Position numbers and translations under genes: made by a program. From IMG/VR virus record IMGVR_UViG_3300046517_002304, positions 248,001-312,000 of that record: a stretch of 64,000 nt of DNA. One strand, given 5' to 3'. This document shows positions 423 through 38,740 of the stretch, in pieces. Each line of letters starts with the position of its first letter. Positions within the stretch are counted from its first letter, which is position 1. The notes beneath the pieces are model-generated. The model was not told where the DNA came from and did no database searches. It worked only from the letters and a program-made list of their open reading frames with translations. The DNA is from a virus.

Positions 423-1622
423 ATGCGATTTTCTCAATTCTTGACAGAAATTAGGACTCCTCCACATATGCCTCTGAAGTATTTCAGAGATAAGCTGGCC
501 AGCATTTCTGCTATAGAGCAAAATCTGAGTGAATTTGTTTTAAACTATGAAAAATTTCAAGATATTTTATATGATTTCAATGGTACTTCCAACTATTACA
601 GAATCCGCTTACCATGGGAAATTGGAGAAAAATTAGGCAAAAATACATCATATAAAGATTCATTTTCAGAGCCGATAAGAAGACTATTTCAATATTTAGA
701 GTTTGATAATCCTCACGGTTGGGAAAAATTTCTGCCAAACATTCTTCCGTTCGGAGAAGAAGGATATCAAGCTTTTATTACAAAGCATCAAAAGACATTG
801 AGGAAAATGACTCAATTTATAAAAGCTGCGCCTGATTTAGTTAATGAAATAAAAAGTGTTGCTGAATATTTGCAGGGTGGAAATCAAGCCGAGCCAGGAG
901 CGCCGACTTTAGCAGAGGCAGTAGGGTACGTGAATTACATTGCCAATGGATATCAAAATATAATGAAGTTGCTAAAAGAAGTTTTTGATCTTGAACATAA
1001 ATTAAAAGCGTATATGGAAAGAATACAACTTAATAAAGAGAGACAGTGGAACAGCACCGGAGAAGATATCAAGCCGAAACACGAAGGCACAGAAACATTA
1101 TATCATGCTACAATTGCCGCAGATGCTATTATAAACGGCGGATTTAAAACAAGAGCAGAATTAGGCCATAACGGAGCCTTAGGTGGTGGGCCGAGTGATG
1201 TAGTAAGTTTTACCGCCGACCTAAGAATAGCTAAAGAAATAAGCAAGAACCTAAGAATTGTAGTCAGAATAGCCAAAGGATTAATTAAACCAGAAGAAAT
1301 ACTAAAAATGGCCGCAGACGATAATGTTGACATTAGTAGATTTGACGCTCCCCGTAGTTATGCTCGCCATAAGACAGATGATCCAAAGATGACCTATGAG
1401 TTATTCAGAAGCTTTTTAGCACAGGCACATTTTGATAACAAGCATTATGACCCGTTATTCTTCGACGTATCTTTAGATGATTTGAAAAATGTAGATGAAC
1501 GACAAATTGGCGTACTAGCTTGTAAGGTTGATATGAGCCAAGTGAAAGATTATCTCACATCTATGGAAGAGTATAGAGCGCCGCCTAGTGCAGTTTTAGG
1601 TGTTAGAAAGGCTATAGGATAA
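423..1622 (+). CDS. Putative head-packaged protein with C-terminal ADP-ribosyltransferase-like domain
   Basis: 399 aa. Residues 1-9 (M-R-F-S-Q-F-L-T-E) resemble the capsid-targeting peptides of T4 internal proteins, which the prohead protease cuts after [L/I]-x-E. The middle is helical and charged. From about residue 225 the pattern L-Y-H-A-T, then I-I-x-G-G-F, then S-F-T-x-x-x-x-x-A is that of NAD-dependent ADP-ribosyltransferase folds (Y-H start, substrate-loop G-F, S-F-T strand); a catalytic Glu cannot be assigned by eye. The stop overlaps the next gene's start by one base (TAATG), so the two are probably translated together. Suggested role: an enzyme injected with the DNA that modifies host proteins, as T4 Alt does. 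The transferase call is tentative. Confidence 0.55.
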   Translation: MRFSQFLTEIRTPPHMPLKYFRDKLASISAIEQNLSEFVLNYEKFQDILYDFNGTSNYYRIRLPWEIGEKLGKNTSYKDSFSEPIRRLFQYLEFDNPHGWEKFLPNILPFGEEGYQAFITKHQKTLRKMTQFIKAAPDLVNEIKSVAEYLQGGNQAEPGAPTLAEAVGYVNYIANGYQNIMKLLKEVFDLEHKLKAYMERIQLNKERQWNSTGEDIKPKHEGTETLYHATIAADAIINGGFKTRAELGHNGALGGGPSDVVSFTADLRIAKEISKNLRIVVRIAKGLIKPEEILKMAADDNVDISRFDAPRSYARHKTDDPKMTYELFRSFLAQAHFDNKHYDPLFFDVSLDDLKNVDERQIGVLACKVDMSQVKDYLTSMEEYRAPPSAVLGVRKAIG

Positions 1623-2311
1623 TGCCATTTAAAAATAAAAGACAAATCAAAGCATGCTTCGCAGCACATGACCCAAAATGGAATTGCGAAAAATGGCTTA
1701 AAGTAACACCTAAAAATATTCCAGAGTCATTGTCATTTAAACAATGGTTGGAAGGCAAACATTTAACAGAAGCTACTAAGGAAGATTTCTGGGAACTAGG
1801 CAATCTTCAAAGAGATAGACCAGAGCACGCCATGCTTCAAGTTCAATATGCTATGGGAGGCGGAGTTATGAATCCTGTCATAGAACATGTCGGCGATTTA
1901 ATTCACAGAATGACAGAGCGCCCTACTTGGAGCTATGCGGGATATGAGTATGTAAAAAATAAAGTAGAAAAAACTCTTAGGTGGCTTACAAATGGGTATG
2001 GGTTTGCCAAAGAATTCAGCGAAAATATAGCCAACAATGCTAGTTCAATGGGAATCCCAGCAGAACAACTACGTAGCAAAATATATCGCGCTATGGATGT
2101 ATATGCCGATGAGCATGCTAAATTACCTACTTATAATAGAGCGCAGAAGCTAGCGCAAATAGCAGCAGTATCTTTAGGTAGACGACAGTTTCATAAAACT
2201 GTCCAGGCACTTAAAATGCTACAATCACATCTTGGATCAATGCAAGAATGGATTAACTTTGCCCATCAAGGCGTCACTCAGAATGAACCAGTCGTAGCAC
2301 CATTGCCTTAG
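1622..2311 (+). CDS. Putative virion-internal protein
   Basis: 229 aa, coupled to the previous gene by TAATG. The N-terminus K-R-Q-I-K-A-C-F-A-A ... W-x-C resembles a short motif frequent in phage and host proteins of unknown role. Around residues 35-46 a second capsid-targeting-like string (L-S-F-K-Q-W-L-E) appears, so cleavage there would release the mostly helical remainder. No enzyme motif is visible. Its last 38 nt overlap the convergent gene 2274-2726. Confidence 0.55.
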   Translation: MPFKNKRQIKACFAAHDPKWNCEKWLKVTPKNIPESLSFKQWLEGKHLTEATKEDFWELGNLQRDRPEHAMLQVQYAMGGGVMNPVIEHVGDLIHRMTERPTWSYAGYEYVKNKVEKTLRWLTNGYGFAKEFSENIANNASSMGIPAEQLRSKIYRAMDVYADEHAKLPTYNRAQKLAQIAAVSLGRRQFHKTVQALKMLQSHLGSMQEWINFAHQGVTQNEPVVAPLP

Positions 2312-2726
2312 GTGTGCGATATTCAAATAAACTGCCAACTCCCTTATATGGAGTGCCATTCCAATAATTAATTGCACATTCTTTGGCTTGATCAGGGTTA
2401 TCTATCCACTCATCAATTTCTGAATACCATCCCTCATCTGACGCCTCAACCCTACCAAGTGGCCTAACAAGGTATACAAAATCTAAATATCCGCCAGCAG
2501 AATCAATTTCGTCAATATCTGCTACCATATATACTGATTTTTTGCGGCTTAGCTTATCTTTTGGACGAACTAGCTCAAGAATATTTTCAGAGAACTGCAC
2601 TTCTGGATAACTAGTATATCCATCATTTTGTGGAGTTAAAATAAATCCATTAGGGAATTCCTTTCGGCTCCCATGATAAAGATTTTTAGGATTTAGATTC
2701 TCTAACCATAAACTGAAGGACTGCAT
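2274..2726 (-). CDS. Putative small ADP-ribosyltransferase (Arr-like fold) with targeting peptide
   Basis: 150 aa. The start M-Q-S-F-S-L-W-L-E-N again matches the x-F-S-x-(F/W)-L-x-E pattern. It is followed at once by N-L-Y-H-G-S, a G-F-I-L loop, a strand V-Y-M-V-A-D and Y-L-V-R-P-L-G-R-V-E, an order like that of rifampin ADP-ribosyltransferase (Y-H-G-T ... I-Y-V-V-E-P-T-G). Arr-type enzymes are about 140 aa, matching this length. The 3' end overlaps the convergent plus gene. Family call tentative; no target can be named. Confidence 0.5.
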   Translation of the reverse strand: MQSFSLWLENLNPKNLYHGSRKEFPNGFILTPQNDGYTSYPEVQFSENILELVRPKDKLSRKKSVYMVADIDEIDSAGGYLDFVYLVRPLGRVEASDEGWYSEIDEWIDNPDQAKECAINYWNGTPYKGVGSLFEYRTPKAMVLRLVHSE

Positions 2727-2994: not shown

Positions 2995-3303
2995 TTAATC
3001 ATTAAAACCAACTTGTTCTCTGTACTTAAAAATAAACTCACAAGCCTTGTCTATGCTGGTGCTTCCTACACCATTTGGCGCAGTTACACTTTCAGAATAC
3101 AGCACTTGTGCCGTACTGGCTCCATAAACTGTAATAAAAGAGCCATTAATGGTAAGGCTAACTCTCCCAGCTTCGGTAGAGCCGTCTTTTGTTTTAATTA
3201 CGTGAAGCGGCCAGAACGTTTCTGAATCTAGGTAAGCGACCTGATCGTAAGCATCTTTCCAGCATCTTTCCCCTGATACATTTATACTAACGCTAGCTTT
3301 CAT
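2995..3303 (-). CDS. Family A paralogue (102 aa), distal end of array
   Basis: Starts M-K-A-S-V-S-I-N-V and ends ...F-I-F-K-Y-R-E-Q-V-G-F-N-D, matching the family A frame: N-terminal beta strand M-K-A-x-V-x-I, an aromatic middle, and a C-terminal helix with Y-R-x-x-x-G. It is the last member in transcription order and is separated from the rest by the repeat protein 3306-4139. Confidence 0.7.
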   Translation of the reverse strand: MKASVSINVSGERCWKDAYDQVAYLDSETFWPLHVIKTKDGSTEAGRVSLTINGSFITVYGASTAQVLYSESVTAPNGVGSTSIDKACEFIFKYREQVGFND

Positions 3304-3305
3304 AA

Positions 3306-4139
3306 TTACTCGTCTTTCTTATCAGTACTCTTATACATTCGCTCGCCATTAATCCACCACTGCACATTTCCGCTGGCGAAAACAATAGCCGGGCCTTCTT
3401 CTCTATGCAGCTTACCTTCCCTAAACCAGAACATTTCTGCATCTGACGTAATAACAGCAGGGCCATTATCACGGTGCTGTATTCCATCTTTATACCAGTA
3501 TTGACTTCCGTCCGATGTTTGTATGGCAGGACCATTATTGCGATGTAGCTTCCCGTCTAAATACCATAATTGACTACCGTCTGGTGCCATTACAGCCGGC
3601 TTTCCTACTCGGTGATATTTTCCATTAACCCACCATTCTTTTCTTGATTTATATTCTTTTTCAGGCGTGGAACCATGAACCTCTTCAAAAATAATTCTTG
3701 CTGGACCATCTACTCTATGTCTCTCCCCTTCAGAAAACCATTCTTGGTCTCCATTATTACGAATAATGGCAGGCCCACCGTCTCTATGTAATCTTCCTTG
3801 TTTATACCAGCATTGATCGCCATTACTAAAAATCATCGCCGGACCATCTTCCCGATGGAGAAGACCATGTTGGAACCATTCGGCCGTATACCAATTATCT
3901 TGGTAAACGATTGCTGGACCAGAATCTCTATGATATGATCCATACTCGTCAAACCAACGTTCAGTGTTGCCATTTGAATCAGTCTTATACCGTGGAACAT
4001 TAGCGAAACCCCGAGCAACTCCATCAATCGCGGGGCGAGATACAAAATCTTCTCCACGTACAACTTTTGTCCAGATTAGGTATGACCCAAACCCCAGCAA
4101 AAGCAAAAACAACACACGCATTAAATTATTTTTACTCAT
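3306..4139 (-). CDS. Membrane-anchored protein of eight H-R-x-x-G-P-A repeats
   Basis: 277 aa. Residues 6-24 form a membrane anchor or uncleaved signal. The rest is eight tandem units of about 24-30 aa with core W-(Y/F)-x-x-G-x-x-H-R-x-D-G-P-A-x-I, like the repeats found in many large phages and giant viruses (MORN-2-like beta hairpins). Such repeats form extended beta sheets, usually for binding. AAGGAG lies 8 nt before the ATG. It interrupts the family A array. Role unknown; envelope-facing display is likely from topology. Confidence 0.7.
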   Translation of the reverse strand: MSKNNLMRVLFLLLLGFGSYLIWTKVVRGEDFVSRPAIDGVARGFANVPRYKTDSNGNTERWFDEYGSYHRDSGPAIVYQDNWYTAEWFQHGLLHREDGPAMIFSNGDQCWYKQGRLHRDGGPAIIRNNGDQEWFSEGERHRVDGPARIIFEEVHGSTPEKEYKSRKEWWVNGKYHRVGKPAVMAPDGSQLWYLDGKLHRNNGPAIQTSDGSQYWYKDGIQHRDNGPAVITSDAEMFWFREGKLHREEGPAIVFASGNVQWWINGERMYKSTDKKDE

Positions 4140-4165
4140 TTTTTTCTCCTTGTTATTTTTTTCTT

Positions 4166-4396
4166 TCAGGTATTAATAAATTTTAAAACTTCAATAGCAA
4201 TCACGGCTACCCCAACGCCTATGAAGCACATTACTCCAAACATTAACATGACATATCTGGAGTTACTTCTATTTCCTGCCCGACACAGACCACAATCGTA
4301 TATCAATTCATGTCCGTCTATAATCATAGTTCGGCATGTTATATTATGCTTCTTACATTTATATCGGAAGATCAACGTCCTTACTTTAGCTTTCAT
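4166..4396 (-). CDS. Family A-like N-terminus with Cys pairs and membrane helix
   Basis: 76 aa. Starts M-K-A-K-V-R-T like family A but continues with C-x-x-H ... C ... C-x-x-C, a likely zinc site, then a membrane helix (about 48-70). It could be a chimera of the array N-terminus with another gene. Overlaps the upstream gene end by 11 nt. Confidence 0.6.
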   Translation of the reverse strand: MKAKVRTLIFRYKCKKHNITCRTMIIDGHELIYDCGLCRAGNRSNSRYVMLMFGVMCFIGVGVAVIAIEVLKFINT

Positions 4397-4706
4397 AATC
4401 GTCCTTGTATACTTTTCGGTAACGGTAAATAGTTGAGCGCATTTCCGTCAAAGTGTATTCCTTAAAAAACGCCGCACCAAAATCCTTCATCTTACCACTA
4501 CAAATTACACTTCCATCGTCTTTAAAAATAGTCAAAACACTGCTGGTCATTCCTCCTCCATTAGGCGGCACCACTCTACCGACTAATATAAGGTCTTTAT
4601 AAAAACGCTTTTCCAGCCTATTGTTAACCATATAAAAAGAAAGCGAATATTCGTATGTATTCTTTTTTTTCTCAGGCCCTACAGTAATTTTAACTTCAGC
4701 TTTCAT
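4386..4706 (-). CDS. Family A paralogue (106 aa)
   Basis: Starts M-K-A-E-V-K-I-T-V-G-P-E-K-K-K; longer middle than most members and a C-terminus ending Y-R-K-V-Y-K-D-D-Y-E-S rather than the usual G-(W/Y)-E. ATGA overlap with the preceding cistron. Confidence 0.75.
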   Translation of the reverse strand: MKAEVKITVGPEKKKNTYEYSLSFYMVNNRLEKRFYKDLILVGRVVPPNGGGMTSSVLTIFKDDGSVICSGKMKDFGAAFFKEYTLTEMRSTIYRYRKVYKDDYES

Positions 4707-4978
4707 TTGTTTAATCCATATGCGTTACGATAATAATATACTTCATGTCCAGCGATATCATTAGATTCATCAGACATTTCATACTTAAATGGACGATATG
4801 AGTATGACGCGCCAGAATTATCCTGATAAATATACAATCTTTTCTGGGAATAAACAACATACCCAACACAGTAATTGCCTGGAGTGTAAATGTATACAAT
4901 GCTATACAAATCACCGCTGGGTATAAAATGATATGGGTGTTCTTTAAAACGAATCTTATAATCAACAATGGCCTTCAT
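4703..4978 (-). CDS. Divergent family A paralogue (91 aa)
   Basis: M-K-A-I-V-D-Y-K-I-R-F, then H-P-Y at the usual place and many Tyr residues. C-terminal helix keeps Y-x-x-x-Y-G-L-N-K. Coupled by ATGA on both sides. Confidence 0.7.
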   Translation of the reverse strand: MKAIVDYKIRFKEHPYHFIPSGDLYSIVYIYTPGNYCVGYVVYSQKRLYIYQDNSGASYSYRPFKYEMSDESNDIAGHEVYYYRNAYGLNK

Positions 4979-5253
4979 TCCATTCCCTTGCCAGTCCGAT
5001 ATTCATGTAACGCAATACCAAAGGCATCATCGCTAGAATACCATTTTTTAAAAACACCTTTGTTTACCGCAAATCCATCTCCTGTTTCGCCATAAACAAC
5101 AACTAAGCCGTCAAGATCAAACCTCACGCCTACTTTATGATTATTATCATCACGGTAAATCGTACAATATGGCATGCCACTACCATAACATACTTTTTTT
5201 ATCGCATATGGATGTTCGATATTTACTTCTTTTATAATTACTTCAGCCTTCAT
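4975..5253 (-). CDS. Family A paralogue (92 aa)
   Basis: M-K-A-E-V-I-I-K-E-V ... E-H-P-Y ... A-F-G-I-A-L-H-E-Y-R-T-G-K-G-M-E. Closest in the middle to the member at 5776 (shared V-G-V-R-F-x-x-D-G and A-F-G-I-A-L-H-E-Y-R), a recent duplicate. Confidence 0.8.
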   Translation of the reverse strand: MKAEVIIKEVNIEHPYAIKKVCYGSGMPYCTIYRDDNNHKVGVRFDLDGLVVVYGETGDGFAVNKGVFKKWYSSDDAFGIALHEYRTGKGME

Positions 5254-5516
5254 ACATGCCCCAATTCTCTGAAACGAGTTTCATGAACATATTTCACTAT
5301 TTCATACAAAGCCTCATTAGGGTCAATAGTACGCAGTATATCACGATGATGATTTAAACAAGCATGAACGCGAACAGTGTTGTCAGACCAGTTAATCAAA
5401 CCTGCCAATCCACCATCCTGTAAAGATACTCTAATCATCTGATATGAAATATATTTCAGTCTATAGCCGAACATATCCGGCAACACTTCCAATTCAAATG
5501 AGTAAGGCTTAGTCAT
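5250..5516 (-). CDS. Highly divergent array member (88 aa)
   Basis: Starts M-T-K-P-Y-S-F-E-L-E-V and lacks the M-K-A-E-V head, but has the same size, position and a C-terminal helix ending H-E-T-R-F-R-E-L-G-H-V. Coupled by ATGA. Probably a diverged family A copy, though an unrelated insert is possible. Confidence 0.6.
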   Translation of the reverse strand: MTKPYSFELEVLPDMFGYRLKYISYQMIRVSLQDGGLAGLINWSDNTVRVHACLNHHRDILRTIDPNEALYEIVKYVHETRFRELGHV

Positions 5517-5779
5517 TCGTATCCCATCAACTTTCTTAGTTCGTGAATCCTAATGGCAATCTGATCGTCGGTTTCATTTTTACTAATACCAATATCACAA
5601 GTATTCTGAGAATTGTTATTAAAAACACTAGCCTCATCGCGCCTACGATTAATATACCCAACAAAAAATGTATTATCGCTATTCCTTAAGTCCGATCCAT
5701 AGAATGTCTTTTTAAGAGTATAAGGATGACTATTATTTTTTTCCTCAGACCCTAAAGTAATTTTAACTTCAGCTTTCAT
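5513..5779 (-). CDS. Family A paralogue (88 aa)
   Basis: M-K-A-E-V-K-I-T-L-G-S-E-E-K-N-N-S-H-P-Y-T-L ... I-H-E-L-R-K-L-M-G-Y-E. The S-H-P-Y-(T/S)-(L/M) head is shared with 6601 and 6852. Confidence 0.8.
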   Translation of the reverse strand: MKAEVKITLGSEEKNNSHPYTLKKTFYGSDLRNSDNTFFVGYINRRRDEASVFNNNSQNTCDIGISKNETDDQIAIRIHELRKLMGYE

Positions 5780-6045
5780 TCCAACCCCTTTGATTTACGA
5801 TATTCGTGTAGAGCAATGCCGAAAGCATTATTACTATCATAATGTTTGTTAAAGCCTATTGCTTCAGAAGTTATATCATTATGATTGTAGAACATCACGC
5901 TACCGTCACCATGAAATCTAACGCCTATAGGGTTATCGTTGTTATCTTTCCAAACCGTATAATGATTACCGCCCAAAACATAAACTTTTTCTGTTTTGTA
6001 AATGATGTTATTTGCTAACTCTCTTACGGTAACTTCAGCTTTCAT
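5776..6045 (-). CDS. Family A paralogue (89 aa)
   Basis: M-K-A-E-V-T-V-R-E-L ... N-P-I-G-V-R-F-H-G-D-G-S-V ... H-E-Y-R-K-S-K-G-L-E. Near-duplicate of 4975 in its second half. Confidence 0.8.
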   Translation of the reverse strand: MKAEVTVRELANNIIYKTEKVYVLGGNHYTVWKDNNDNPIGVRFHGDGSVMFYNHNDITSEAIGFNKHYDSNNAFGIALHEYRKSKGLE

Positions 6046-6320
6046 TAGTTTCTCCCCAAATAATACTTGCGATAAAGATTTACCTTAAACAAACATGCTT
6101 CTGGCGTAATCCCATCAGGAAGATCAATAGTAGTTACACGCTTCTCCGCTACTTCATCATATATTGAAATTGTGCAATCGGTTAAATTAATAGCAGCAAC
6201 TCTTCCAAGGTTTTTGGCGAAAGGAATCAATAAATAAACAGCACCTTTGGTTGCAGTGGAGTTCCAGTGTATCCGATAAGGCGAATCTTCAACCATTGAT
6301 ATTTTGACTTCAGCTTTCAT
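6045..6320 (-). CDS. Family A paralogue (91 aa)
   Basis: Start set at the ATG overlapping the previous stop (ATGA at 6317-6320) rather than at an ATG two codons upstream. M-K-A-E-V-K-I-S-M ... L-Y-R-K-Y-Y-L-G-R-N, so the terminal G-(W/Y)-E is lost. Confidence 0.75.
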   Translation of the reverse strand: MKAEVKISMVEDSPYRIHWNSTATKGAVYLLIPFAKNLGRVAAINLTDCTISIYDEVAEKRVTTIDLPDGITPEACLFKVNLYRKYYLGRN

Positions 6321-6604
6321 TCCCATCCCTTTGATTTACGATATTCGTGTACTATCTGGCCAAATTCATCATCACTAGTGTATTGATTAATAGGTAGATT
6401 TAATTCACCATAGTCAAAAGTATTTCCATTTTTATTATAGACAGCAAAACTTTTAGCATTATCATTACTCTCCGCAAACCTAAGAGCGGCTTTATGATTA
6501 TTACCACAGATATAAAGCGTATAATATAACGAACCATTATCGTGGTGCGTTTTCTCAATCTTATATGGGTTACTACAAACAGATACCTTAACAGTTGCTT
6601 TCAT
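6317..6604 (-). CDS. Family A paralogue (95 aa)
   Basis: M-K-A-T-V-K-V-S-V ... N-P-Y-K-I-E-K-T ... V-H-E-Y-R-K-S-K-G-W-E. ATGA overlaps at both ends. Confidence 0.8.
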   Translation of the reverse strand: MKATVKVSVCSNPYKIEKTHHDNGSLYYTLYICGNNHKAALRFAESNDNAKSFAVYNKNGNTFDYGELNLPINQYTSDDEFGQIVHEYRKSKGWE

Positions 6605-6855
6605 TCGTACCCTTGTTCTTTTCTAAACTCATAAATCCTATGAGCTACTTCATCATTCGTCTCATTTACCAAAGTCATAAACTTAGAAGCAGTCTGACCG
6701 TGTAGATCAAACGCCACTATCGTATTTTGAGGACGATTTACATACCCAACAAAACCATTAGCATTACGAAAGTCCATTCCATATGCCGTAGAATGAAGCG
6801 TGTAAGGGTGCTTGTTAGACCTAGACCCTACAGTAATTTTAACACTAGCCTTCAT
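6601..6855 (-). CDS. Family A paralogue (84 aa)
   Basis: M-K-A-S-V-K-I-T-V-G ... K-H-P-Y-T-L ... R-I-Y-E-F-R-K-E-Q-G-Y-E. Shares F-V-G-Y-(V/I)-N-R-(P/R) with 5513. Confidence 0.8.
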   Translation of the reverse strand: MKASVKITVGSRSNKHPYTLHSTAYGMDFRNANGFVGYVNRPQNTIVAFDLHGQTASKFMTLVNETNDEVAHRIYEFRKEQGYE

Positions 6856-7118
6856 TCGTATCCCTGTTCTTTCCTAATCTCATAAATCCTACAGGCTGCT
6901 TCGTTATTAGACTCGTAAAGAGAGAGAGGAAAACTAGCAAGAACAACACCATTATTATAAACAAATACAGTGTGATTTGAGCGATCTATCACACCAACCG
7001 TTTTCTCAAAACCATGCTGGTCTATTACAAATGTACTCTGAGTGCCTTCAGACATGCTATAAGGGTGGCTATTATTTTTTTTCTCAGGCCCCAAAGAGAT
7101 TTTAACAGTTGCTTTCAC
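6852..7118 (-). CDS. Family A paralogue (88 aa), GTG start
   Basis: Start set at GTG 7118, which overlaps the preceding stop as GTGA and aligns with the family head V/M-K-A-T-V-K-I-S-L-G. Ends R-I-Y-E-I-R-K-E-Q-G-Y-E. Confidence 0.75.
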   Translation of the reverse strand: MKATVKISLGPEKKNNSHPYSMSEGTQSTFVIDQHGFEKTVGVIDRSNHTVFVYNNGVVLASFPLSLYESNNEAACRIYEIRKEQGYE

Positions 7119-7387
7119 GTAGGCCACCCTTTACTTAAACGAAATTCATAGATTCTCTTAGCCACTTCTTCTAACATCTCCTCGTCTTTACCCGATTCTA
7201 CTGTAGTTAAGTGGTCTATACCATTAAAGGCTTTATTATAAATATTCATGTAAGAGTCACCAACATTCATCTTTCCAACAACTACATTCCCTGTAAAAGG
7301 TTTCTCCCAAAAAATATAATATCTACCATCCATAGTCCCAATCCAATAAGGATGCCCGCCAACAGTTATTTTAACTTCAGCTTTCAT
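7115..7387 (-). CDS. Family A paralogue (90 aa)
   Basis: M-K-A-E-V-K-I-T-V-G-G-H-P-Y-W-I-G ... K-R-I-Y-E-F-R-L-S-K-G-W-P-T. Closely similar to 7384-7659 (H-P-Y-(W/Y), N-K-(A/S)-F-N-G-(I/V)), a recent tandem duplicate. Confidence 0.8.
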   Translation of the reverse strand: MKAEVKITVGGHPYWIGTMDGRYYIFWEKPFTGNVVVGKMNVGDSYMNIYNKAFNGIDHLTTVESGKDEEMLEEVAKRIYEFRLSKGWPT

Positions 7388-7659
7388 GTTTCCCATCCAC
7401 TATACAAGCGAAATTCATAAATTCTCTTAGCAGCATTTTCTAAAGATTCCGGTGTAGCTTTTCCATCTATCCAGTCATGATGATGCACTCCGTTAAAACT
7501 CTTATTATAAACGGACACATACTTTTCATCCTTAGCCCATCTTCCTACAACCTTCGATGGATATACTCCTTTAAGCTTAACCATAATATAAGTATACCCA
7601 AATCCTTTAGAGAAATAGTAAGGATGCCCACCAACTGTAATTTTAACTTCTGCTTTCAT
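7384..7659 (-). CDS. Family A paralogue (91 aa)
   Basis: M-K-A-E-V-K-I-T-V-G-G-H-P-Y-Y-F-S ... A-A-K-R-I-Y-E-F-R-L-Y-S-G-W-E-T. Sister copy of 7115. Confidence 0.8.
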   Translation of the reverse strand: MKAEVKITVGGHPYYFSKGFGYTYIMVKLKGVYPSKVVGRWAKDEKYVSVYNKSFNGVHHHDWIDGKATPESLENAAKRIYEFRLYSGWET

Positions 7660-7898
7660 AGGTCGTGATTTTCCACATAACTGGCAATTACTGATGCTAC
7701 CTTTTTCAAATTTTTCGTCTCATAAACAGCATTAAATACCTGCATTCCCTTTTTATCAAATATTTCTAACGTACCGCTCTCGGTCAAAAACCTAGCAACC
7801 ATCGTATAATGGTCATAAAAATAATCCCATCCATAACAATGCATAATACGATAGTCCCCAATCATACTATAAACAATTATAGAAGATAATGCCTTCAT
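7656..7898 (-). CDS. Divergent family A paralogue (80 aa)
   Basis: M-K-A-L-S-S-I-I-V-Y; middle keeps short beta-strand-like segments, end I-A-S-Y-V-E-N-H-D-L. It has its own ribosome site (AAGGGATTCC) after a 28-nt gap, one of the few gaps in the array. Confidence 0.65.
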   Translation of the reverse strand: MKALSSIIVYSMIGDYRIMHCYGWDYFYDHYTMVARFLTESGTLEIFDKKGMQVFNAVYETKNLKKVASVIASYVENHDL

Positions 7899-7926
7899 AG
7901 GAATCCCTTAATATCCTTTAGAAAAA

Positions 7927-8217
7927 TCATTCCGTCCCAAAAAACTGTTTTCGGGAAGACCAAATTTGTTCGGCAACCTGATCCCTGGTCATATTCTCAT
8001 GACAACTAAAAGTAAATAAAGGACTACATTTATTATCATAAACAACAAATTTCTTACATGATTTAGACTTACTGTCATAGCTCATTGCGCCTACATCACG
8101 AAGTAATTTATAACTATAAACCCTATAATTAAAATCCCAGTCAAGCGCCGTCATGTGAATGCTATATGGATGATCACCTTCTGGTTTATTCACAGATAAT
8201 TTTACTTCAGCTTTCAC
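7927..8217 (-). CDS. Family A paralogue (96 aa), GTG start
   Basis: GTG start overlaps the previous stop (GTGA). Head V-K-A-E-V-K-L-S-V ... D-H-P-Y-S-I; end W-S-S-R-K-Q-F-F-G-T-E. Confidence 0.75.
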   Translation of the reverse strand: MKAEVKLSVNKPEGDHPYSIHMTALDWDFNYRVYSYKLLRDVGAMSYDSKSKSCKKFVVYDNKCSPLFTFSCHENMTRDQVAEQIWSSRKQFFGTE

Positions 8218-8477
8218 GCATCACCATTTATTCTTTGTAGTTCTGCGGCTAAGTCATTAGCGTCCCAATATTTTTGACTATAAGTACCAACAATTATTTG
8301 CAATCCTGATAAAGATACATCGTACCGTTCAAGGATATAGACACCAAGATTATTATCTCTAATCCTTCCCTTCTTCTCGCTAAAACCAGAGAAAACATTA
8401 TAATAACCATTGCCAATGTATACCGCATAATACAAAGGCTGGTGATTAATCTTCCAATCTGATAATATTGCTTTCAT
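8214..8477 (-). CDS. Divergent family A paralogue (87 aa)
   Basis: M-K-A-I-L-S-D-W-K-I-N-H-Q-P-L-Y-Y; similar opening to 4703. C-terminus L-A-A-E-L-Q-R-I-N-G-D-A. Confidence 0.65.
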   Translation of the reverse strand: MKAILSDWKINHQPLYYAVYIGNGYYNVFSGFSEKKGRIRDNNLGVYILERYDVSLSGLQIIVGTYSQKYWDANDLAAELQRINGDA

Positions 8478-8782
8478 ATATGTCCTAATTCCATCATTCT
8501 TTTAGCAAGAATAAATGTAAAAGACTCATACTCATTTGGCAAATATTCCCCTTCCCAAATTGTATTAACTTGATCATCAAACACTCTCATTACATTACTA
8601 TTTCCATCACAGGCACCAATGCTATAATAAGCGCCTTCTTCAGTAATCCTAGCAAATGAATAAAACTTCTTATTAAGATGTTTATACATTATAAAAGGAT
8701 GATATTTTGACGAACTGATAACATCGTATTCAATATATTTTGGAAATTTAAATACAACATCAATACTAACATTGGCTTTCAT
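8474..8782 (-). CDS. Family A paralogue (102 aa)
   Basis: Start at M-K-A-N-V-S-I-D-V (8782), inside the last codons of the upstream gene (17-nt overlap). Ends I-L-A-K-R-M-M-E-L-G-H-I. Confidence 0.7.
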   Translation of the reverse strand: MKANVSIDVVFKFPKYIEYDVISSSKYHPFIMYKHLNKKFYSFARITEEGAYYSIGACDGNSNVMRVFDDQVNTIWEGEYLPNEYESFTFILAKRMMELGHI

Positions 8783-9059
8783 GTTTACACCCAAATGCCT
8801 TACGTTTTTTGTAAATATGCTCTTCTATTTCTTCTTTACTCATAGCCTTATAATCACTTATAGATAACGTTTTAGATCCAACTCCTTTATTGGCATATAC
8901 TCTTAAGTCACGGATATATCCTGTACTGTTTGGCTTTTGATAACCACATACCAATTCGTTAGTGCTCTCAAGATAAGCGGCTATTCTTCCTAAAGTTGGA
9001 CTATCCCTAAAGACATAACCGTATCGGCTACCAAGACTAAGTTTAACTTCTGCCTTCAT
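8766..9059 (-). CDS. Family A paralogue (97 aa)
   Basis: Start at the ATGA overlap (9059). M-K-A-E-V-K-L-S-L-G ... H-I-Y-K-K-R-K-A-F-G-C then an extra K-H-E-S-Q-C tail that is read across the next gene's ATG-AAA-GC start region. Confidence 0.75.
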   Translation of the reverse strand: MKAEVKLSLGSRYGYVFRDSPTLGRIAAYLESTNELVCGYQKPNSTGYIRDLRVYANKGVGSKTLSISDYKAMSKEEIEEHIYKKRKAFGCKHESQC

Positions 9060-9340
9060 TGTTTTAACCAATCTCTCTTTAATAATTCATTATGAACATA
9101 GTGAATTAAATGATCATGATTCGCAAATTTAGGAATTCCGTTGATTACTATATACTGCATATTATTAGGATCAGTTGAGCCATATAAACAGATTTGTTCC
9201 GAACCACATAAATGAACTGCTACTAGATTACCCATTACCCAAGGAGGTTGACCTACGTGAACATGTGTCTCTAAAGGAAGCACATCCTGAGCACAATAAT
9301 CAAATATCTTGTTTACTTCTATTTTAACTTCGGCTTTCAT
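9056..9340 (-). CDS. Family A paralogue (94 aa)
   Basis: M-K-A-E-V-K-I-E-V-N ... Y-V-H-N-E-L-L-K-R-D-W-L-K-Q. Middle strongly diverged (several His/Val). Confidence 0.75.
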   Translation of the reverse strand: MKAEVKIEVNKIFDYCAQDVLPLETHVHVGQPPWVMGNLVAVHLCGSEQICLYGSTDPNNMQYIVINGIPKFANHDHLIHYVHNELLKRDWLKQ

Positions 9341-9597
9341 GGTTTCTCCAATCCAACCGAGATTCTGTATTCATGTAGCTTAGCTCCTACTGCTTCTAAA
9401 TCATCACCTTTTATACTAAGATAAATCGGAAGGCTATTATCTGATTGAATAACAGCCAACATTTTCTTATTCACGTAATACTTGCCAACTATTGCCATAC
9501 CATCTTGAGATATAAACCATTTCTCGTTATTTTTAAGATGATAAATTACATATGGATTATCATTGTTAACAATGGATATTTTAACCGAAGCTTTCAT
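9337..9597 (-). CDS. Family A paralogue (86 aa)
   Basis: M-K-A-S-V-K-I-S-I-V-N-N-D-N-P-Y-V-I-Y-H ... K-L-H-E-Y-R-I-S-V-G-L-E-K-P. Keeps the aromatic-W-F-x-x-x-D/N-G turn seen in the 9.6-11.1 kb group. Confidence 0.8.
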   Translation of the reverse strand: MKASVKISIVNNDNPYVIYHLKNNEKWFISQDGMAIVGKYYVNKKMLAVIQSDNSLPIYLSIKGDDLEAVGAKLHEYRISVGLEKP

Positions 9598-9843
9598 TCT
9601 AATCCCTTTTTCATACGAAACTCATAAATGAACTCAGCTATTTCATCTAAATCACTCATATGAGGAGACAAATACACCGTCTCCCCCATTCCAACGTCAA
9701 CCTGTAGTGAGTTGTTTTCTTTTTTATACATGGCAACAACATGATGTCCACCAGGTTTGCAGAAATAAGTTCCGCCATCATATTGATAATACCAATATCG
9801 CGGTTCTTTTTTTTTCAAGAAAAACTTTTACTTCAGCTTTCAT
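9594..9843 (-). pseudogene. Family A member split by a frameshift at an A9 run
   Basis: From the ATG at 9843 (TAATG overlap) the frame reads M-K-A-E-V-K-V-F-L-E-K-K then stops soon after a run of nine A on the coding strand (9807-9815). One base fewer joins it to E-P-R-Y-W-Y-Y-Q-Y-D-G ... F-R-M-K-K-G-L-E, a perfect family A continuation. Either the gene is broken, it is expressed by polymerase or ribosome slippage on A9, or it is a homopolymer sequencing error. Confidence 0.75.
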
Positions 9844-10091
9844 TAATCTTCCCACCCTTGATTAAACCTGTACGAATACACCCATCTAGCAACTTCATTT
9901 ACGTCTTTTGACTTAGTAGGAACAAAGAACGTGGACCCATTTGATCGGTAGATCTCTATTCTTTTTTTATTCGTGTCAAACTTTGCCGCTAAGTTGTTGT
10001 TATTTTTATTAGTGAACCAATACAACTGTGGGAAATCAGTAATATTATACGGAGGCTTGTTATTAACAGTGATTTTTACGGTTGCTTTCAT
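9843..10091 (-). CDS. Family A paralogue (82 aa)
   Basis: M-K-A-T-V-K-I-T-V-N-N-K-P-P-Y ... R-W-V-Y-S-Y-R-F-N-Q-G-W-E-D. Start chosen at the ATG that overlaps the upstream stop. Confidence 0.8.
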   Translation of the reverse strand: MKATVKITVNNKPPYNITDFPQLYWFTNKNNNNLAAKFDTNKKRIEIYRSNGSTFFVPTKSKDVNEVARWVYSYRFNQGWED

Positions 10092-10336
10092 AATTCCCAT
10101 CCTTGCACTGTTCTATAACTGTGTAGCCAAATCCCCGCTTCATCTACGTTAGTATTCGACCACCCGACAGTAATATTCTTTCCATTTGGAGGGAATATCA
10201 ATAGTCTACTGCCTAAAAACAATTTACCGTATATAGAAGATCCATCAGGTGGCGCGAACCAAACTTGGCCTTCTGCAACATAATGTGCCATATACGGATG
10301 TTTTTTATTAATAAAAATTTTGATTTCAGCTTTCAT
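10088..10336 (-). CDS. Family A paralogue (82 aa)
   Basis: M-K-A-E-I-K-I-F-I-N-K-K-H-P-Y ... V-W-F-A-P-P-D-G ... W-L-H-S-Y-R-T-V-Q-G-W-E-L. TAATG coupling. One of a tight subgroup with 10336 and 10578. Confidence 0.8.
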   Translation of the reverse strand: MKAEIKIFINKKHPYMAHYVAEGQVWFAPPDGSSIYGKLFLGSRLLIFPPNGKNITVGWSNTNVDEAGIWLHSYRTVQGWEL

Positions 10337-10581
10337 TAACCTTCCCACCCTTGCGCTACGCGATAGTTGTATAGGTAGTTTCCTATTTCATCTATGTCTA
10401 CGCTTGATGTACCAATGGTAATTTCATTTCCAACAGGCGAAAACATTACCATTTTGACTCCGAGCAAGAATTTACCGAATACGACATCGCCGTTAGTAAA
10501 CCAAACTTGTTTATCAGAGTAATGGTACTTCTTATAAGGATGCTTGTTATTAATAACGGTGATTTCTACAGATGCCTTCAT
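10336..10581 (-). CDS. Family A paralogue (81 aa)
   Basis: M-K-A-S-V-E-I-T-V-I-N-N-K-H-P-Y ... Q-V-W-F-T-N-G-D ... Y-L-Y-N-Y-R-V-A-Q-G-W-E-G. The longer upstream frame is rejected because the family head and the ATGA overlap fix the start at 10581. Confidence 0.8.
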   Translation of the reverse strand: MKASVEITVINNKHPYKKYHYSDKQVWFTNGDVVFGKFLLGVKMVMFSPVGNEITIGTSSVDIDEIGNYLYNYRVAQGWEG

Positions 10582-10829
10582 GGTTGCTCCCATCCCTGCT
10601 CTACTCTGTAGCGATGAATCAAATTTCCTGCATATTCTACGTCCGTACACATAGTAGAAACAATGATGCCTCCTCCTTTTGGAGGACATATCACTATTTT
10701 ACTGCCCCAAAAGAGCTTGCCGAATACCTTGTTTCCGTTCGGTGACGTAAACCAGGTTTGGAATTCGGAATATTGAAGTAAACCGTACGGATGTTTTTTA
10801 CCAATTGTTATTTTTACTTCAGCTTTCAT
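10578..10829 (-). CDS. Family A paralogue (83 aa)
   Basis: M-K-A-E-V-K-I-T-I-G-K-K-H-P-Y ... T-W-F-T-S-P-N-G ... L-I-H-R-Y-R-V-E-Q-G-W-E-Q-P. Sister of 10336. Confidence 0.8.
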   Translation of the reverse strand: MKAEVKITIGKKHPYGLLQYSEFQTWFTSPNGNKVFGKLFWGSKIVICPPKGGGIIVSTMCTDVEYAGNLIHRYRVEQGWEQP

Positions 10830-11074
10830 TCCAATCCTTTTTTCAGCCGGATGAAATAAATCGCTCTGCCAACGTCATCTATTGTATCTTGCGTTTTAGT
10901 CTTAAATATCGCTACGGCCTTACTTTCTCCAAAGCAAGCATGCGCAACTGAAATTCTGGCGAAATATTTGCCGACTAATTTATTTTCATTATTTCTAAAC
11001 TCTATTCTGCGAGGTCCATCATAAGCCCATTTATATGGATGTTTTAGAACAGAGATAATTACGGACGCTTTCAT
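10826..11074 (-). CDS. Family A paralogue (82 aa), first gene of the array
   Basis: M-K-A-S-V-I-I-S-V-L-K-H-P-Y-K-W ... A-I-Y-F-I-R-L-K-K-G-L-E. Promoter-proximal copy, with GGTGA 5 nt before the ATG and the sigma70-like promoter just upstream. Confidence 0.8.
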   Translation of the reverse strand: MKASVIISVLKHPYKWAYDGPRRIEFRNNENKLVGKYFARISVAHACFGESKAVAIFKTKTQDTIDDVGRAIYFIRLKKGLE

Positions 11075-11083: not shown

Positions 11084-11112
11084 ACAATACCATAAAACCC
11101 CTGTAGAGTCAA
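11084..11112 (-). promoter_or_regulatory. Sigma70-like promoter for the family A array
   Basis: On the minus strand TTGACT (11112-11107), a 17-bp spacer, and TATTGT (11089-11084), followed within 10 nt by the ATG at 11074. It is the only clear promoter before about 8 kb of coupled genes. The short leader leaves little room for other control. Confidence 0.65.
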
Positions 11113-34510: not shown

Positions 34511-34828
34511 CTATCTCAACAAATTTTGCGGGAGGTCCAGCTCAAACTCAACAGGACAAACCCACAAAAGCCGATCATTAAGAGTATTCTGACCTAGCGG
34601 CATCCTGTCAAACGTATACATAAATATAAACAATTCGTGCGGGATATCCCCTCGCCAGACCTTTTTGCCCCACAGAGATTTTTGAGAAATAGTAAAACGC
34701 TCACGAAAGACTTCGGCACGAAACTTGGGATTAAGAACCGCGTTGATTGCAGCAGCACCAGGGCAGGCCGCACAATTTCCCTGCATTCCATTTTTGATAT
34801 GCTCTTCTGTGATTTTAACTAATGTCAT
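34511..34828 (-). CDS. Family C paralogue (105 aa)
   Basis: I-T-E-E-H-I-K-N-G-M ... C-A-A-C-P-G-A-A-A-I-N-A-V-L ... F-E-L-D-L-P. The C-x2-C-P pair and the terminal F-x-L-x-(I/L)-P are the family marks. Function unknown; a metal or disulfide site is possible. Confidence 0.7.
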   Translation of the reverse strand: MTLVKITEEHIKNGMQGNCAACPGAAAINAVLNPKFRAEVFRERFTISQKSLWGKKVWRGDIPHELFIFMYTFDRMPLGQNTLNDRLLWVCPVEFELDLPQNLLR

Positions 34829-34837
34829 AGGGATAAC

Positions 34838-35104
34838 TTACTTCCTCTGATCTACAAGGGTTTCCCAATGGACAGCAATCCACGTTTCATCCAAGTCTTC
34901 GGGCAACTCAATACGCTTGACCTCTGCCGTCGTCAGTTCCAGCACGACCTCAAGGGAAGCAAGATTATACTCCACCGTGAAACCATTGGCGGCAGGAAGG
35001 ATATTCTTGATATCTTCGGCGGCCACCTTATCGGTGCAACTATCCTTGATCCACATAAAGCCATGTTGTTTGAGCAACTGTCTGAGCGTGCCGTCAACTT
35101 TCAT
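34838..35104 (-). CDS. Hypothetical 88-aa protein
   Basis: R-Q-L-L-K-Q-H-G-F-M-W-I-K ... V-L-E-L-T-T-A-E-V-K-R-I-E-L. Stop TAA-GTTATCC. Confidence 0.65.
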   Translation of the reverse strand: MKVDGTLRQLLKQHGFMWIKDSCTDKVAAEDIKNILPAANGFTVEYNLASLEVVLELTTAEVKRIELPEDLDETWIAVHWETLVDQRK

Positions 35105-35105
35105 C

Positions 35106-35291
35106 TTATGGTCCCTCCAGTAAATCCATTTGAAACTGCCAGTCTGTGCTTTCGTCGTCCGTCAATGCTTTGAATTCAGGATGAACTTCAACGATATGCT
35201 CCTCAATATAATAAGAAACTGCATCCTCAAATATCTGCTTCACCACTTCTGGCGGGAGGTTTGCGATTCTTGCTTTGACGATGAAATTCAT
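35106..35291 (-). CDS. Family B paralogue (61 aa)
   Basis: Start M-N-F-I-V-K-A-R-I (35291), sharing bases with the upstream TAA. Helix E-V-V-K-Q-I-F-E-D-A-V-S-Y-Y as in family B. Confidence 0.65.
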   Translation of the reverse strand: MNFIVKARIANLPPEVVKQIFEDAVSYYIEEHIVEVHPEFKALTDDESTDWQFQMDLLEGP

Positions 35292-35518
35292 TACTGTTTT
35301 TCCGCCTCTTCCATCCAGCCGTTCAGCCACCTTGCACCATCTCTACTACCAATGTAAGGATTTGCATTGGCGGGAACGCCTGCCCTTTTAGCTTGCTTGC
35401 CAGATTCAACGATGGATGCAAGGTAGGCATCACGACCTTTAGATGCTTCCTTCACCATGAAACACATCCCCCATATCACGGCGATGACCACAGCTAGAAT
35501 TGCAAAGTATTTTTTCAT
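35291..35518 (-). CDS. Membrane-anchored RMF-like protein (family F, 75 aa)
   Basis: Membrane helix 5-21, then G-K-Q-A-K-R-A-G ... A-N-P-Y ... A-R-W-L-N-G-W-M-E-E. The G-x-x-A-x-x-x-G...N-P-Y...W-L-x-G-W order is that of ribosome modulation factor. RMF itself has no anchor, so the role is uncertain. Confidence 0.6.
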   Translation of the reverse strand: MKKYFAILAVVIAVIWGMCFMVKEASKGRDAYLASIVESGKQAKRAGVPANANPYIGSRDGARWLNGWMEEAEKQ

Positions 35519-35534
35519 GATTGATTAGGGATAA

Positions 35535-35831
35535 CTAGGCGAGATACTTTTTGGGAATGTCCATCGTGAAGCGGAAAGGTTTCGCCAAACCATTGTCATA
35601 GTCAAAGTTCCAAATGAAATCCTTAACCTTACGCGGAAGCGGCATATTTGCCAGCTCAACCGTGAATGGTTGCGGGTATCGTTTACAAATCATCAAAATG
35701 CCAAACGCGGCCTTTGCCATTAAAGACGATTTGAGTCTGGCATTGATTGCCCGAGCGACGGGACATTTCCTACAATCCTTCAAAATGCCAGCGTCAATAC
35801 GCTTCTGGGTGACGTAGAATTGAATTTTCAT
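35535..35831 (-). CDS. Family C paralogue (98 aa)
   Basis: M-K-I-Q-F-Y-V-T-Q-K-R-I-D-A-G ... C-R-K-C-P-V-A-R-A-I-N ... K-P-F-R-F-T-M-D-I-P. Start 35831; stop TAG-TTATCC. Confidence 0.7.
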   Translation of the reverse strand: MKIQFYVTQKRIDAGILKDCRKCPVARAINARLKSSLMAKAAFGILMICKRYPQPFTVELANMPLPRKVKDFIWNFDYDNGLAKPFRFTMDIPKKYLA

Positions 35832-35832
35832 A

Positions 35833-36018
35833 TCAGCCTGCATCCACTGGTTTCGTTGGTTCAACAACCGTTGGAATCCCGAACAACGTAGACTCCAGTC
35901 CCTTGACTAACGGCGGGAGGGCTTCAAATACATCTTGGAGCGCCTCACGAATGATAAAATGATTCGTTACTTCATCATCGTATTCCACGTACATCGTGAC
36001 TTTGGCGGATTTTTTCAT
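35833..36018 (-). CDS. Family B paralogue (61 aa)
   Basis: K-V-T-M-Y-V-E-Y-D-D-E-V-T-N-H-F-I-I-R-E-A-L-Q-D-V-F. ATGA overlap upstream. Confidence 0.7.
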   Translation of the reverse strand: MKKSAKVTMYVEYDDEVTNHFIIREALQDVFEALPPLVKGLESTLFGIPTVVEPTKPVDAG

Positions 36019-36176
36019 GGTTTCTCAAAAGATAAGAGAACATTTTCACCAATGGGAAACTCTTGCTTAAATTCTAATCCTTGAGTCTTCATAACAGTAA
36101 TAACACCTTCCTTATCTTCAGGACGGCAGACGACTCCCAGCGAAGTCACATTGAATTTTCTACAGTTGATAATCAT
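36015..36176 (-). CDS. Hypothetical 53-aa protein
   Basis: M-I-I-N-C-R-K-F-N-V-T-S-L-G-V-V-C-R-P-E-D-K-E-G-V-I-T. beta-rich; no Shine-Dalgarno, octamer 7 nt upstream. Confidence 0.6.
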   Translation of the reverse strand: MIINCRKFNVTSLGVVCRPEDKEGVITVMKTQGLEFKQEFPIGENVLLSFEKP

Positions 36177-36192
36177 GGTTGATTACGGATAA

Positions 36193-36372
36193 CTAACGAA
36201 ACATATCATGCCAGAATTTGCGATGGGCCGCATTGTTTTCATACTCCACACTGCCGGGGCGGGGAGTTGCCCATCCACCATAGCCGATATTATTAATACC
36301 AGCGACGTAGAAAGAAACGCCAGTCAGAACGATGAGCAATGCCAGAAGCCAGATATCCCAGTATTTTTTCAT
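36193..36372 (-). CDS. 59-aa single-pass membrane protein
   Basis: Helix 6-24 then G-W-A-T-P-R-P-G-S-V-E-Y-E-N-N outside. Coupled by ATGA to 36369. Confidence 0.6.
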   Translation of the reverse strand: MKKYWDIWLLALLIVLTGVSFYVAGINNIGYGGWATPRPGSVEYENNAAHRKFWHDMFR

Positions 36373-36587
36373 AGCGGTTTCTTGTTTGGGTAAATGTGAA
36401 CAACCTTACTGTCGTCCAGCGACGTAGTAAACTCAGGCAGATAATTCATAACATATTCTGCCTGAGGGTAATTCTGCCCAACCCATTTCGTTGCATCACT
36501 GCGGGCAAAGGCAGCACAAGTGCCGGTGACCTGAATAATCATCGGCTCTTCGCCTTTGATTCGGATATCAAAATGATAAAGACTCAT
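36369..36587 (-). CDS. Family E paralogue (72 aa)
   Basis: M-S-L-Y-H-F-D-I-R-I-K-G ... C-A-A-F-A-R-S-D-A-T-K-W aligns with 34216. Confidence 0.65.
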   Translation of the reverse strand: MSLYHFDIRIKGEEPMIIQVTGTCAAFARSDATKWVGQNYPQAEYVMNYLPEFTTSLDDSKVVHIYPNKKPL

Positions 36588-36811
36588 GGTTCATATCTCG
36601 GATATCCATGATAGGAAGGCATATTGACATGCACTAGACCCAAACCAGTGCCAGGTTCCGTCTGACTTGGATCAAGATCAATTTTGAGAATTTCCTGATA
36701 CTCCAACTCCGAACCGTCAAGACACAGATACAATACCGCGTTACCCTTCAGCGGGTTAGACTTAGCCATCTTTTGGAGGCTCTTGATTGCGTCGTTGATT
36801 GTCATAGACAT
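36584..36811 (-). CDS. Hypothetical 75-aa protein
   Basis: Helix I-K-S-L-Q-K-M-A then V-L-Y-L-C-L-D-G-S-E-L-E-Y. ATGA to next gene. Starts M-S-M-T-I. Confidence 0.6.
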   Translation of the reverse strand: MSMTINDAIKSLQKMAKSNPLKGNAVLYLCLDGSELEYQEILKIDLDPSQTEPGTGLGLVHVNMPSYHGYPRYEP

Positions 36812-36820
36812 AGGGATAAC

Positions 36821-37117
36821 TTAGGCAGCACCTTTCAATGCAATTTTGGGAATGTTCAGTGTAAAACAGAACGGCTTGACTGTTCTGCCATTATCAAATG
36901 CCTTGATAAATTTCTTCACACTTGTCGGCATCTTTAAGCGGCGAAAGACTCCTCTTGTCTTAGTAAAATTATAAATTTCAATACTGCCAGCGATTACATG
37001 AGCGTAATAAGGCCACGCCAGCCTCGCATTAATCACCAAAGCGGCGGGACAAAGCATACAATCACTAGCAATTCCATGTTGGATTTGCTCCTGCATTACT
37101 ACGAATCGTGTTTTCAT
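36821..37117 (-). CDS. Family C paralogue (98 aa)
   Basis: M-K-T-R-F-V-V-M-Q-E-Q-I-Q-H-G ... C-M-L-C-P-A-A-L-V-I-N ... K-P-F-C-F-T-L-N-I-P. Start 37117, not the longer frame. Confidence 0.7.
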   Translation of the reverse strand: MKTRFVVMQEQIQHGIASDCMLCPAALVINARLAWPYYAHVIAGSIEIYNFTKTRGVFRRLKMPTSVKKFIKAFDNGRTVKPFCFTLNIPKIALKGAA

Positions 37118-37119
37118 AA

Positions 37120-37302
37120 TTACATCCTCAACAGCCAGATACGGGAGTGGCGCGGTTGTTCTTTCTCCCACAAAAGAATAGCACAACAGGCAAGAAACGC
37201 AACTATTGCCCACACTATCATCTCCCCCTCATTAGAGGAAGATTTGAGAATGATAGAGAACGCTTTCAGGCAGATAGCAATAAGAGCGATTTTAATTTTC
37301 AT
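37120..37302 (-). CDS. 60-aa membrane protein
   Basis: M-K-I-K-I-A-L-I-A-I and a second helix M-I-V-W-A-I-V-A-F-L-A-C-C-A-I-L-L-W, then a basic tail. Confidence 0.6.
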   Translation of the reverse strand: MKIKIALIAICLKAFSIILKSSSNEGEMIVWAIVAFLACCAILLWEKEQPRHSRIWLLRM

Positions 37303-37308
37303 GGATAA

Positions 37309-37542
37309 CTACCTGATCGTTTCCTCAGCACAACATTCGCTTGCACCGCCATTGAACACGAATGGTTTTTCTGGCGTGCCGTCGTTGAATCGGTTGTAGC
37401 CGTTGTCGGATGGAGGCCGCTCCCCTTCCTTTTTGAATACCTTATCGCAAGCATCCTTCGGGGAGTCTGCCTTAACGCTCCTGAACATGTTGAACCCAGC
37501 GCCTAGATTATACGGTCGGGTATAGACGTTATATTTGCTCAT
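37309..37542 (-). CDS. Hypothetical 77-aa protein
   Basis: M-S-K-Y-N-V-Y-T-R-P-Y-N-L-G-A-G ... D-A-C-D-K-V-F-K-K-E. Stop TAG-TTATCC. Confidence 0.65.
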   Translation of the reverse strand: MSKYNVYTRPYNLGAGFNMFRSVKADSPKDACDKVFKKEGERPPSDNGYNRFNDGTPEKPFVFNGGASECCAEETIR

Positions 37543-37558
37543 AGATATTCATGGATAA

Positions 37559-37786
37559 CTACTTACACTTCCGCATCTTCCAAATTTCCTGATCGTTTTC
37601 CACCTTGATAAACTCAGGACTCCATCCCGTTGCTTCCTCAAAATGATCCATATACCGACCAATGGTCATTCGTCTGGTATAGTAATCAGGGTTTACGCTG
37701 ACGCTATCCGTAGCAATGATATGCTCCACCTTCCGCATATACTCCACGAATCCATCCCATAATGCTTGCGCTTTAACTTTCGTCAT
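37559..37786 (-). CDS. Hypothetical 75-aa protein
   Basis: Helical, W-D-G-F-V-E-Y-M-R-K-V-E-H-I ending K-M-R-K-C-K. The end DNA is close to the 8-codon frame at 38492. Stop TAG-TTATCC. Confidence 0.65.
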   Translation of the reverse strand: MTKVKAQALWDGFVEYMRKVEHIIATDSVSVNPDYYTRRMTIGRYMDHFEEATGWSPEFIKVENDQEIWKMRKCK

Positions 37787-37935
37787 CGGATGTTCACCCT
37801 TCCGTTTTCGTCAGAGTAATAAAAATCAATCTTGAGAAGGACGTGGGCGGTTTTCAATGCCAGCCAACGGTGATAGGCGATTGCGAAGTCCGAAAACGAT
37901 TCGGCACCTTCATTCGGATTCGTTACGTAGAACAT
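37783..37935 (-). CDS. Hypothetical 50-aa protein
   Basis: M-F-Y-V-T-N-P-N-E-G-A-E-S-F-S-D-F-A-I-A-Y-H-R-W-L. TAATG on the frameshifted family C gene, ATGA on 37786. Confidence 0.55.
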   Translation of the reverse strand: MFYVTNPNEGAESFSDFAIAYHRWLALKTAHVLLKIDFYYSDENGRVNIR

Positions 37936-38248
37936 TAAGTGGCTTTCAACAGGAATTCAGGAATATCCATCAGGAAAGTAAGCGGACTCGGCTTTTGATC
38001 GTAATCCTTCTCATCAAACCGCATAATGAAAAAACTCGCTGTATCGGGCAAGTGGCTGGAATATACTTCTTTTCCGCCAAGTCGCCTTGGCGATTTTACG
38101 CTGTAGAACGCTACTCGCCTTTCTCAACATGGAGTTGATACTCTTCAGAAATTAACGGAATAATTGCCAAAGCAATCGGGCATTCCCCGCCCGAACAGGC
38201 AACTCCGTTGTTAATACACTCTTGCGTTACGGCGATTGTTTTAATCAT
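37935..38248 (-). pseudogene. Family C member with -1 frameshift
   Basis: Frame 1 reads M-I-K-T-I-A-V-T-Q-E-C-I-N-N-G ... C-S-G-G-E-C-P-I-A-L-A-I to TAG near 38115. The -1 frame continues V-A-F-Y-S-V ... F-I-M-R-F-D-E-K-D-Y ... P-L-T-F-L-M-D-I-P-E-F-L-L-K-A-T, a full family C end. No strong slippery heptamer is visible (GAG-AAA-GGC), so a broken gene is likelier than programmed frameshifting. Confidence 0.75.
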
Positions 38249-38475: not shown

Positions 38476-38491
38476 AATGTTTAACGGATAA

Positions 38492-38721: not shown

Positions 38722-38740
38722 TGTATTTTTCTATGGATAA

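Follow-up and report, generated by a model that had tools for sequence, protein, structure and literature searches.

A tandem row of 26 diverged small paralogues with a common N-terminal peptide in a T4-type jumbo phage

Lineage-specific expansions of protein families are known from several jumbo phages. Paralog family B of phage SPN3US (gp83, 138-154, 161, 237) comprises about 20 diverged members encoded mostly in one row, and its copy number varies from 2 to 20 among phages (PMC5694885). Bacillus phage G carries about 35 copies of a small zinc-ribbon protein, and MoxR-vWA pairs of jumbo phages have been proposed to act in virion assembly (both PMC7824862). The internal proteins IPI-IPIII of phage T4 combine a common 10-residue N-terminal targeting sequence with small, fast-evolving and divergent bodies, one of which is an anti-restriction protein (PMC9026906). 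The row of small genes described here, referred to as array 1, is an expansion of the kind represented by SPN3US family B and phage G, with many copies in one phage and none in the relatives compared. The preliminary description of this DNA, according to which no described system has such a look, was therefore too strong, since each of these systems is partly alike. The differences are nevertheless clear. The SPN3US proteins are about 275-500 aa long in the stretch examined, are separated mostly by short gaps, are virion head proteins and share no short tag recognizable by eye; the family profile of array 1 gave nothing significant against 11 of them (gp144-154). The phage G expansion is one of zinc ribbons, for which the available part of the source reports no shared N-terminal tag (PMC7824862), and its comparison with the array-1 family consists of the absent Pfam match. 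Array 1 shares with the T4 internal proteins a short N-terminal peptide common to divergent bodies, but the peptide is a different one, no prohead protease site is present, and 26 members of one fold stand against three. The novelty, within the collections and literature searched, lies in the family itself, in the tag common to two unrelated rows and in the dual-coded tail.

The window, i.e., the whole stretch of 64,000 bases that was analysed, corresponds to bases 248001-312000 of a 511,233-base IMG/VR virus record. A terminase and a major capsid protein of the T4 gp23 type (E 5e-87) are encoded in the record, which indicates a tailed jumbo phage. The capsid protein shares 61% identity with its counterpart in LR756511, an uncultured phage of 595 kb, and about 30% with those of cyanophages. 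Two short IMG/VR contigs (L034, L037) carry fragments 100% identical to this capsid protein and thus show that this virus, or one very close to it, occurs in other samples as a potential source of strain variants. The family profile was run over the whole record, and the other genome analyses used stretches of it.

Array 1 consists of 28 coupled genes at window positions 2995-11074, all on the minus strand and running from 11074 down to 2995. Among the 27 junctions there are 19 stop-start overlaps of 4 nt (ATGA/GTGA), three overlaps of 1 nt and two of greater length (11 nt and 17 nt), which leaves only three short gaps (2, 26 and 28 nt). Twenty-six of the genes (1-25 and 28), of about 80-106 aa, form one family. 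The row begins with genes 1 (10826..11074, 82 aa), 2 (10578..10829, 83 aa), 3 (10336..10581, 81 aa), 4 (10088..10336, 82 aa) and 5 (9843..10091, 82 aa), all family members, the last of which was modelled with AlphaFold2. Gene 6 (9594..9845) is a member frameshifted in an A9 run, with an MKAEVKVFLE head in one frame and the body, from 9818, in the other, possibly through assembly error, slippage or a real loss of the gene. Gene 7 (9337..9597, 86 aa) is followed by gene 8 (9056..9340, 94 aa), which joins a canonical head to a body too diverged for proof by sequence, by gene 9 (8766..9059, 97 aa), by the divergent gene 10 (8474..8782, 102 aa) and by gene 11 (8214..8477, 87 aa), the most divergent member. 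Genes 12 (7927..8217, 96 aa) and 16 (6852..7118, 88 aa) have GTG starts, and between them lie genes 13 (7656..7898, 80 aa), 14 (7384..7659, 91 aa) and 15 (7115..7387, 90 aa), the last two being 49% identical. Then come genes 17 (6601..6855, 84 aa) and 18 (6317..6604, 95 aa), the divergent and likewise modelled gene 19 (6045..6320, 91 aa), genes 20 (5776..6045, 89 aa) and 21 (5513..5779, 88 aa), the divergent gene 22 (5250..5516, 88 aa), which has no MKA head, genes 23 (4975..5253, 92 aa) and 24 (4703..4978, 91 aa), and the divergent gene 25 (4386..4706, 106 aa). Two other proteins are inserted before the last member, gene 28 (2995..3303, 102 aa). Gene 26 (4166..4396, 76 aa) has an MKAKV head on a Cys-rich body with a transmembrane segment, and gene 27 (3306..4139, 277 aa) combines an N-terminal transmembrane segment with HRDNGPA (MORN-like) repeats, its relatives occurring in Atu_ph07 and Celeribacter phage P12053L. 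The preliminary description of a coupled, one-stranded tandem array of about 26 diverged small paralogues was thus borne out, but not for the entire span, as genes 26 and 27 are not members, gene 22 is headless and gene 6 is frameshifted. The single promoter that it assumed is suggested by the tight coupling of the genes, whereas the candidate upstream of gene 1 (TTGACT-17-TATTGT, 11084..11112, minus strand) is weak: this sigma70-like site is one of 38 such matches, and shuffled sequences give 43.

For most of the genes, membership of the family does not depend on the conserved head. When leave-one-out profiles were built with the head removed, the bodies of about 20 genes scored above all shuffles, and those of genes 8, 10, 11, 19, 22 and 25 were not clearly significant by body alone. 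Identity to gene 5 ranges from 14 to 39% across the members. The positions kept in the body are Y15, G36, Y48, G52, I71, R75 and G79, and many strand and loop positions are variable, with an entropy near 3-3.7 bits. Tandem amplification that keeps the frame of the protein and varies its faces was confirmed. The nearest relatives are sometimes adjacent copies (genes 2-3-4, 14-15 and 16-17). Similarity, however, did not fall significantly with distance in the row (Spearman, p 0.26), which indicates that most copies are old.

Over the whole record, the family profile found 26 places, all in array 1. No homologues were found in IMG/VR, INPHARED, GTDB genomes, Pfam, PHROGs, PDB or PADLOC. In the last four collections no match fell below 0.001, the isolated matches of single members reaching E 0.0018 at best, and no known defence or anti-defence family was among them. 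A tblastn search in phages gave no relatives. Two pattern matches in IMG/VR (L011, L012) were due to chance, with no array at either place, and the candidates turned up by related-locus searches in IMG/VR and GTDB genomes, in which one query had no conserved stretch, were not relatives. The copy-number comparison gave 26 copies in the array phage and none in LR756511, LR756508, MG592671 or the IMG/VR fragments, and the largest paralog family found in 300 kb of LR756511 has three members. The expansion is therefore private to the lineage within the collections searched, which possibly do not cover records very near the window. Such confinement to one phage, with no match in any library, is expected of fast lineage-specific expansions.

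The fold was predicted for two members. The AlphaFold2 model of gene 5 (pLDDT 87.9) consists of five strands and a C-terminal helix, with residues 1-10 of the head averaging a pLDDT of 54. Gene 19, the body of which is not detectably homologous, was modelled with the same order of elements (pLDDT 79), its residues 1-8 being below 50. As one family alignment underlies both models, they are independent only in part. A five-strand meander with a C-terminal helix is thus the predicted fold common to the two modelled members. Foldseek searches with both models against PDB and viral models gave no match at E<=0.001. The best PDB match, PLK4 polo-box 3 (prob 0.75, E 0.14), was not significant, and neither were the WD40 blades matched by gene 19 or the viral matches.

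The head and the tail, previously regarded as the conserved parts of one protein, are indeed conserved, but each has a further side. The tail K/Q-G-W-E serves in part as a Shine-Dalgarno site inside the gene. Among the aligned members, the 21 with a further gene downstream all have GGA or GGG as the Gly codon of the tail, and the last gene has GGT; at the other Gly codons of the array genes GGA/GGG occurs in 66 of 145 cases (Fisher p 4e-7 vs. the tail). Purine-rich stretches of the AAGGG or AGGGA type lie within about 12 bases upstream of the next start. The last gene, too, retains the helix residue R75 and G79, which suggests that the tail is also under protein constraint and has two jobs, that of a translational signal and that of a protein element. 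The row clearly exemplifies a protein tail that is at the same time the ribosome-binding site of the following gene, so that part of a conserved motif is explained by translation and not by protein function.

The head M-K-A-x-V-x-I is the best-kept part of the alignment and lies outside the fold in both models (pLDDT about 50). The models are of monomers, so a low-confidence head is no proof that the head is free in a complex. An MKA start is present in 25 of the 26 members (that of gene 6 being out of frame with its body), in none of the 159 other called ORFs of the window, and in 7 of 578 ORFs in half of the genome of one relative, which places the array far above chance. Synonymous codons of the head vary like background usage (Ala p 0.29, Val p 0.25), which means that selection acts on the amino acids and not on the DNA. 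The DNA pattern for MKAEVKI revealed a second row, array 2, at about 412.3-415.2 kb of the record (L021 9309-12160), 155 kb from array 1. It consists of six small genes with MKAEV heads on bodies unrelated to the array-1 family; in hhalign the two arrays matched with 93% probability over columns 1-21 when the heads were included, and with 0.1% when bodies without heads were compared. The head, located outside the fold and common to unrelated bodies, thus behaves as a separable N-terminal tag. Array 2 sits within a MoxR / DUF58 / vWA (Bat-like) cluster and also holds two headless genes, c1 and c2 (L021 10531-10803 and 9477-10466), with tails resembling those of array 1, one of them with a Tat-like signal; they are not claimed as family members, the hhalign probability for c1 being only 26%. 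A single MKAEISV gene at 146.9 kb of the record is regarded as background, because similar starts occur once or twice per relative genome.

The most likely reading, to which we hold tentatively, is that array 1 encodes a tagged set of putative variable binders of host targets. One coupled transcript would give about 25 small one-domain proteins, in each of which a short linker containing H-P-Y joins the 7-9 residue tag M-K-A-[E/S/T]-V-K-I to a meander of five strands with a helix, its frame kept and its faces varied. The common tag may be an address or docking peptide, possibly adding a beta strand to a shared partner, and would bring all array-1 members and the unrelated array-2 bodies to the same place, where the variable bodies would bind different host targets of defence or takeover. 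An arms race, already suggested in the preliminary description, is the leading candidate for the driver of this variation, and the interpretation given there is supported in part. Against a set of binders stand the lack of a target, of an anti-defence homologue and of a fold match at E<=0.001, and no orthologues of the members were found in the collections searched. Moreover, the row could equally build an assembly, and the same divergence would be expected of very old copies under relaxed constraint. It is also conceivable, though rather unlikely, that MKAEVKI represents a second N-terminal address system, unlike the T4-type capsid-targeting-like heads, which directs the small variable proteins of two unrelated rows to one partner or compartment and behind which new bodies can be plugged. 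If the tag is an address, it would allow a giant phage to keep and exchange a large set of host-directed proteins in the manner of a plug-in system.

Next in rank, and unlikely, is packaging of the members in the head and injection with the DNA, with MKAEVKI as a second capsid-targeting sequence. The T4-type gp23 and the pairing of a targeting peptide with divergent bodies in the T4 internal proteins (PMC9026906) fit this explanation, as does the flank at 231-250.7 kb, where M-x-F-[KRS]-x-[WF]-L heads abound and a few of the proteins that bear them are ADP-ribosyltransferase-like by eye. However, a classical capsid-targeting-like head is thereby already present on other genes of the phage, so that MKAEVKI, which is unlike it, is a different label, and it is not followed by the conserved xxE cleavage site of T4 heads. 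The alternating K-A-x-V-x-I-x-V of the head is typical of a beta strand, and together with the tight translational coupling and the low confidence of the head in monomer models it is consistent with hetero-oligomerization of the members into a ring, sheet or filament, with each head adding a strand to its neighbour and the tandem row keeping the ratio equal; this is distinctly doubtful given the extreme divergence of the faces, the headless gene 22 and the occurrence of this head on unrelated bodies outside the row. The location of array 2 inside the MoxR / DUF58 / vWA cluster, with the virion-assembly role proposed for MoxR-vWA pairs in jumbo phages (PMC7824862), would suit members that are virion-assembly clients of a MoxR-vWA chaperone system and a tag that is the recognition peptide of the chaperone. 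This appears improbable, as no MoxR/vWA neighbour was noticed beside array 1 in the window and a MoxR recognition peptide of such a kind is not known. Finally, neutral or dosage-driven amplification of a drifted minor gene, with copies of no special role, would agree with the adjacent closest copies, the other small expansions in the phage and the frameshift in gene 6, but we give it little probability, because 25 open frames with a kept fold and head indicate constraint and most copies are old. The tagged set of putative binders is preferred among these explanations.

The surroundings of array 1 are compatible with host-directed as well as with virion-directed use. The genes with T4 capsid-targeting-like heads lie on its downstream side, and such heads recur at window position 61346 and are found in LR756511 too. 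The larger proteins with these heads cluster at L022 3199-19593 and at window positions 423-2726 and 61346-62146, and the resemblance of a few of them to ADP-ribosyltransferases concerns LYHGS, LYHAT and FYHGT motifs. Another feature of the window is the element TAGTTATCCNT (core AGTTATCC), which occurs between 11681 and 63573 with 114 copies on the minus strand vs. 19 on the plus strand, often just 5' of small genes. Fifteen more copies are found in the 20 kb after the window, none in the 20 kb before it and none upstream of array 1; the element is possibly an early promoter or a processing signal. A protein encoded at 49797-50843 resembles GspG pseudopilins at its N-terminus (NCBIfam E 6e-7, below the cut-off). 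Small CxxCPxAxAI proteins form a six-member family at 34511-42578, interspersed with other genes, and the phage encodes further small families, namely a four-member VEYDD family and one of three members.
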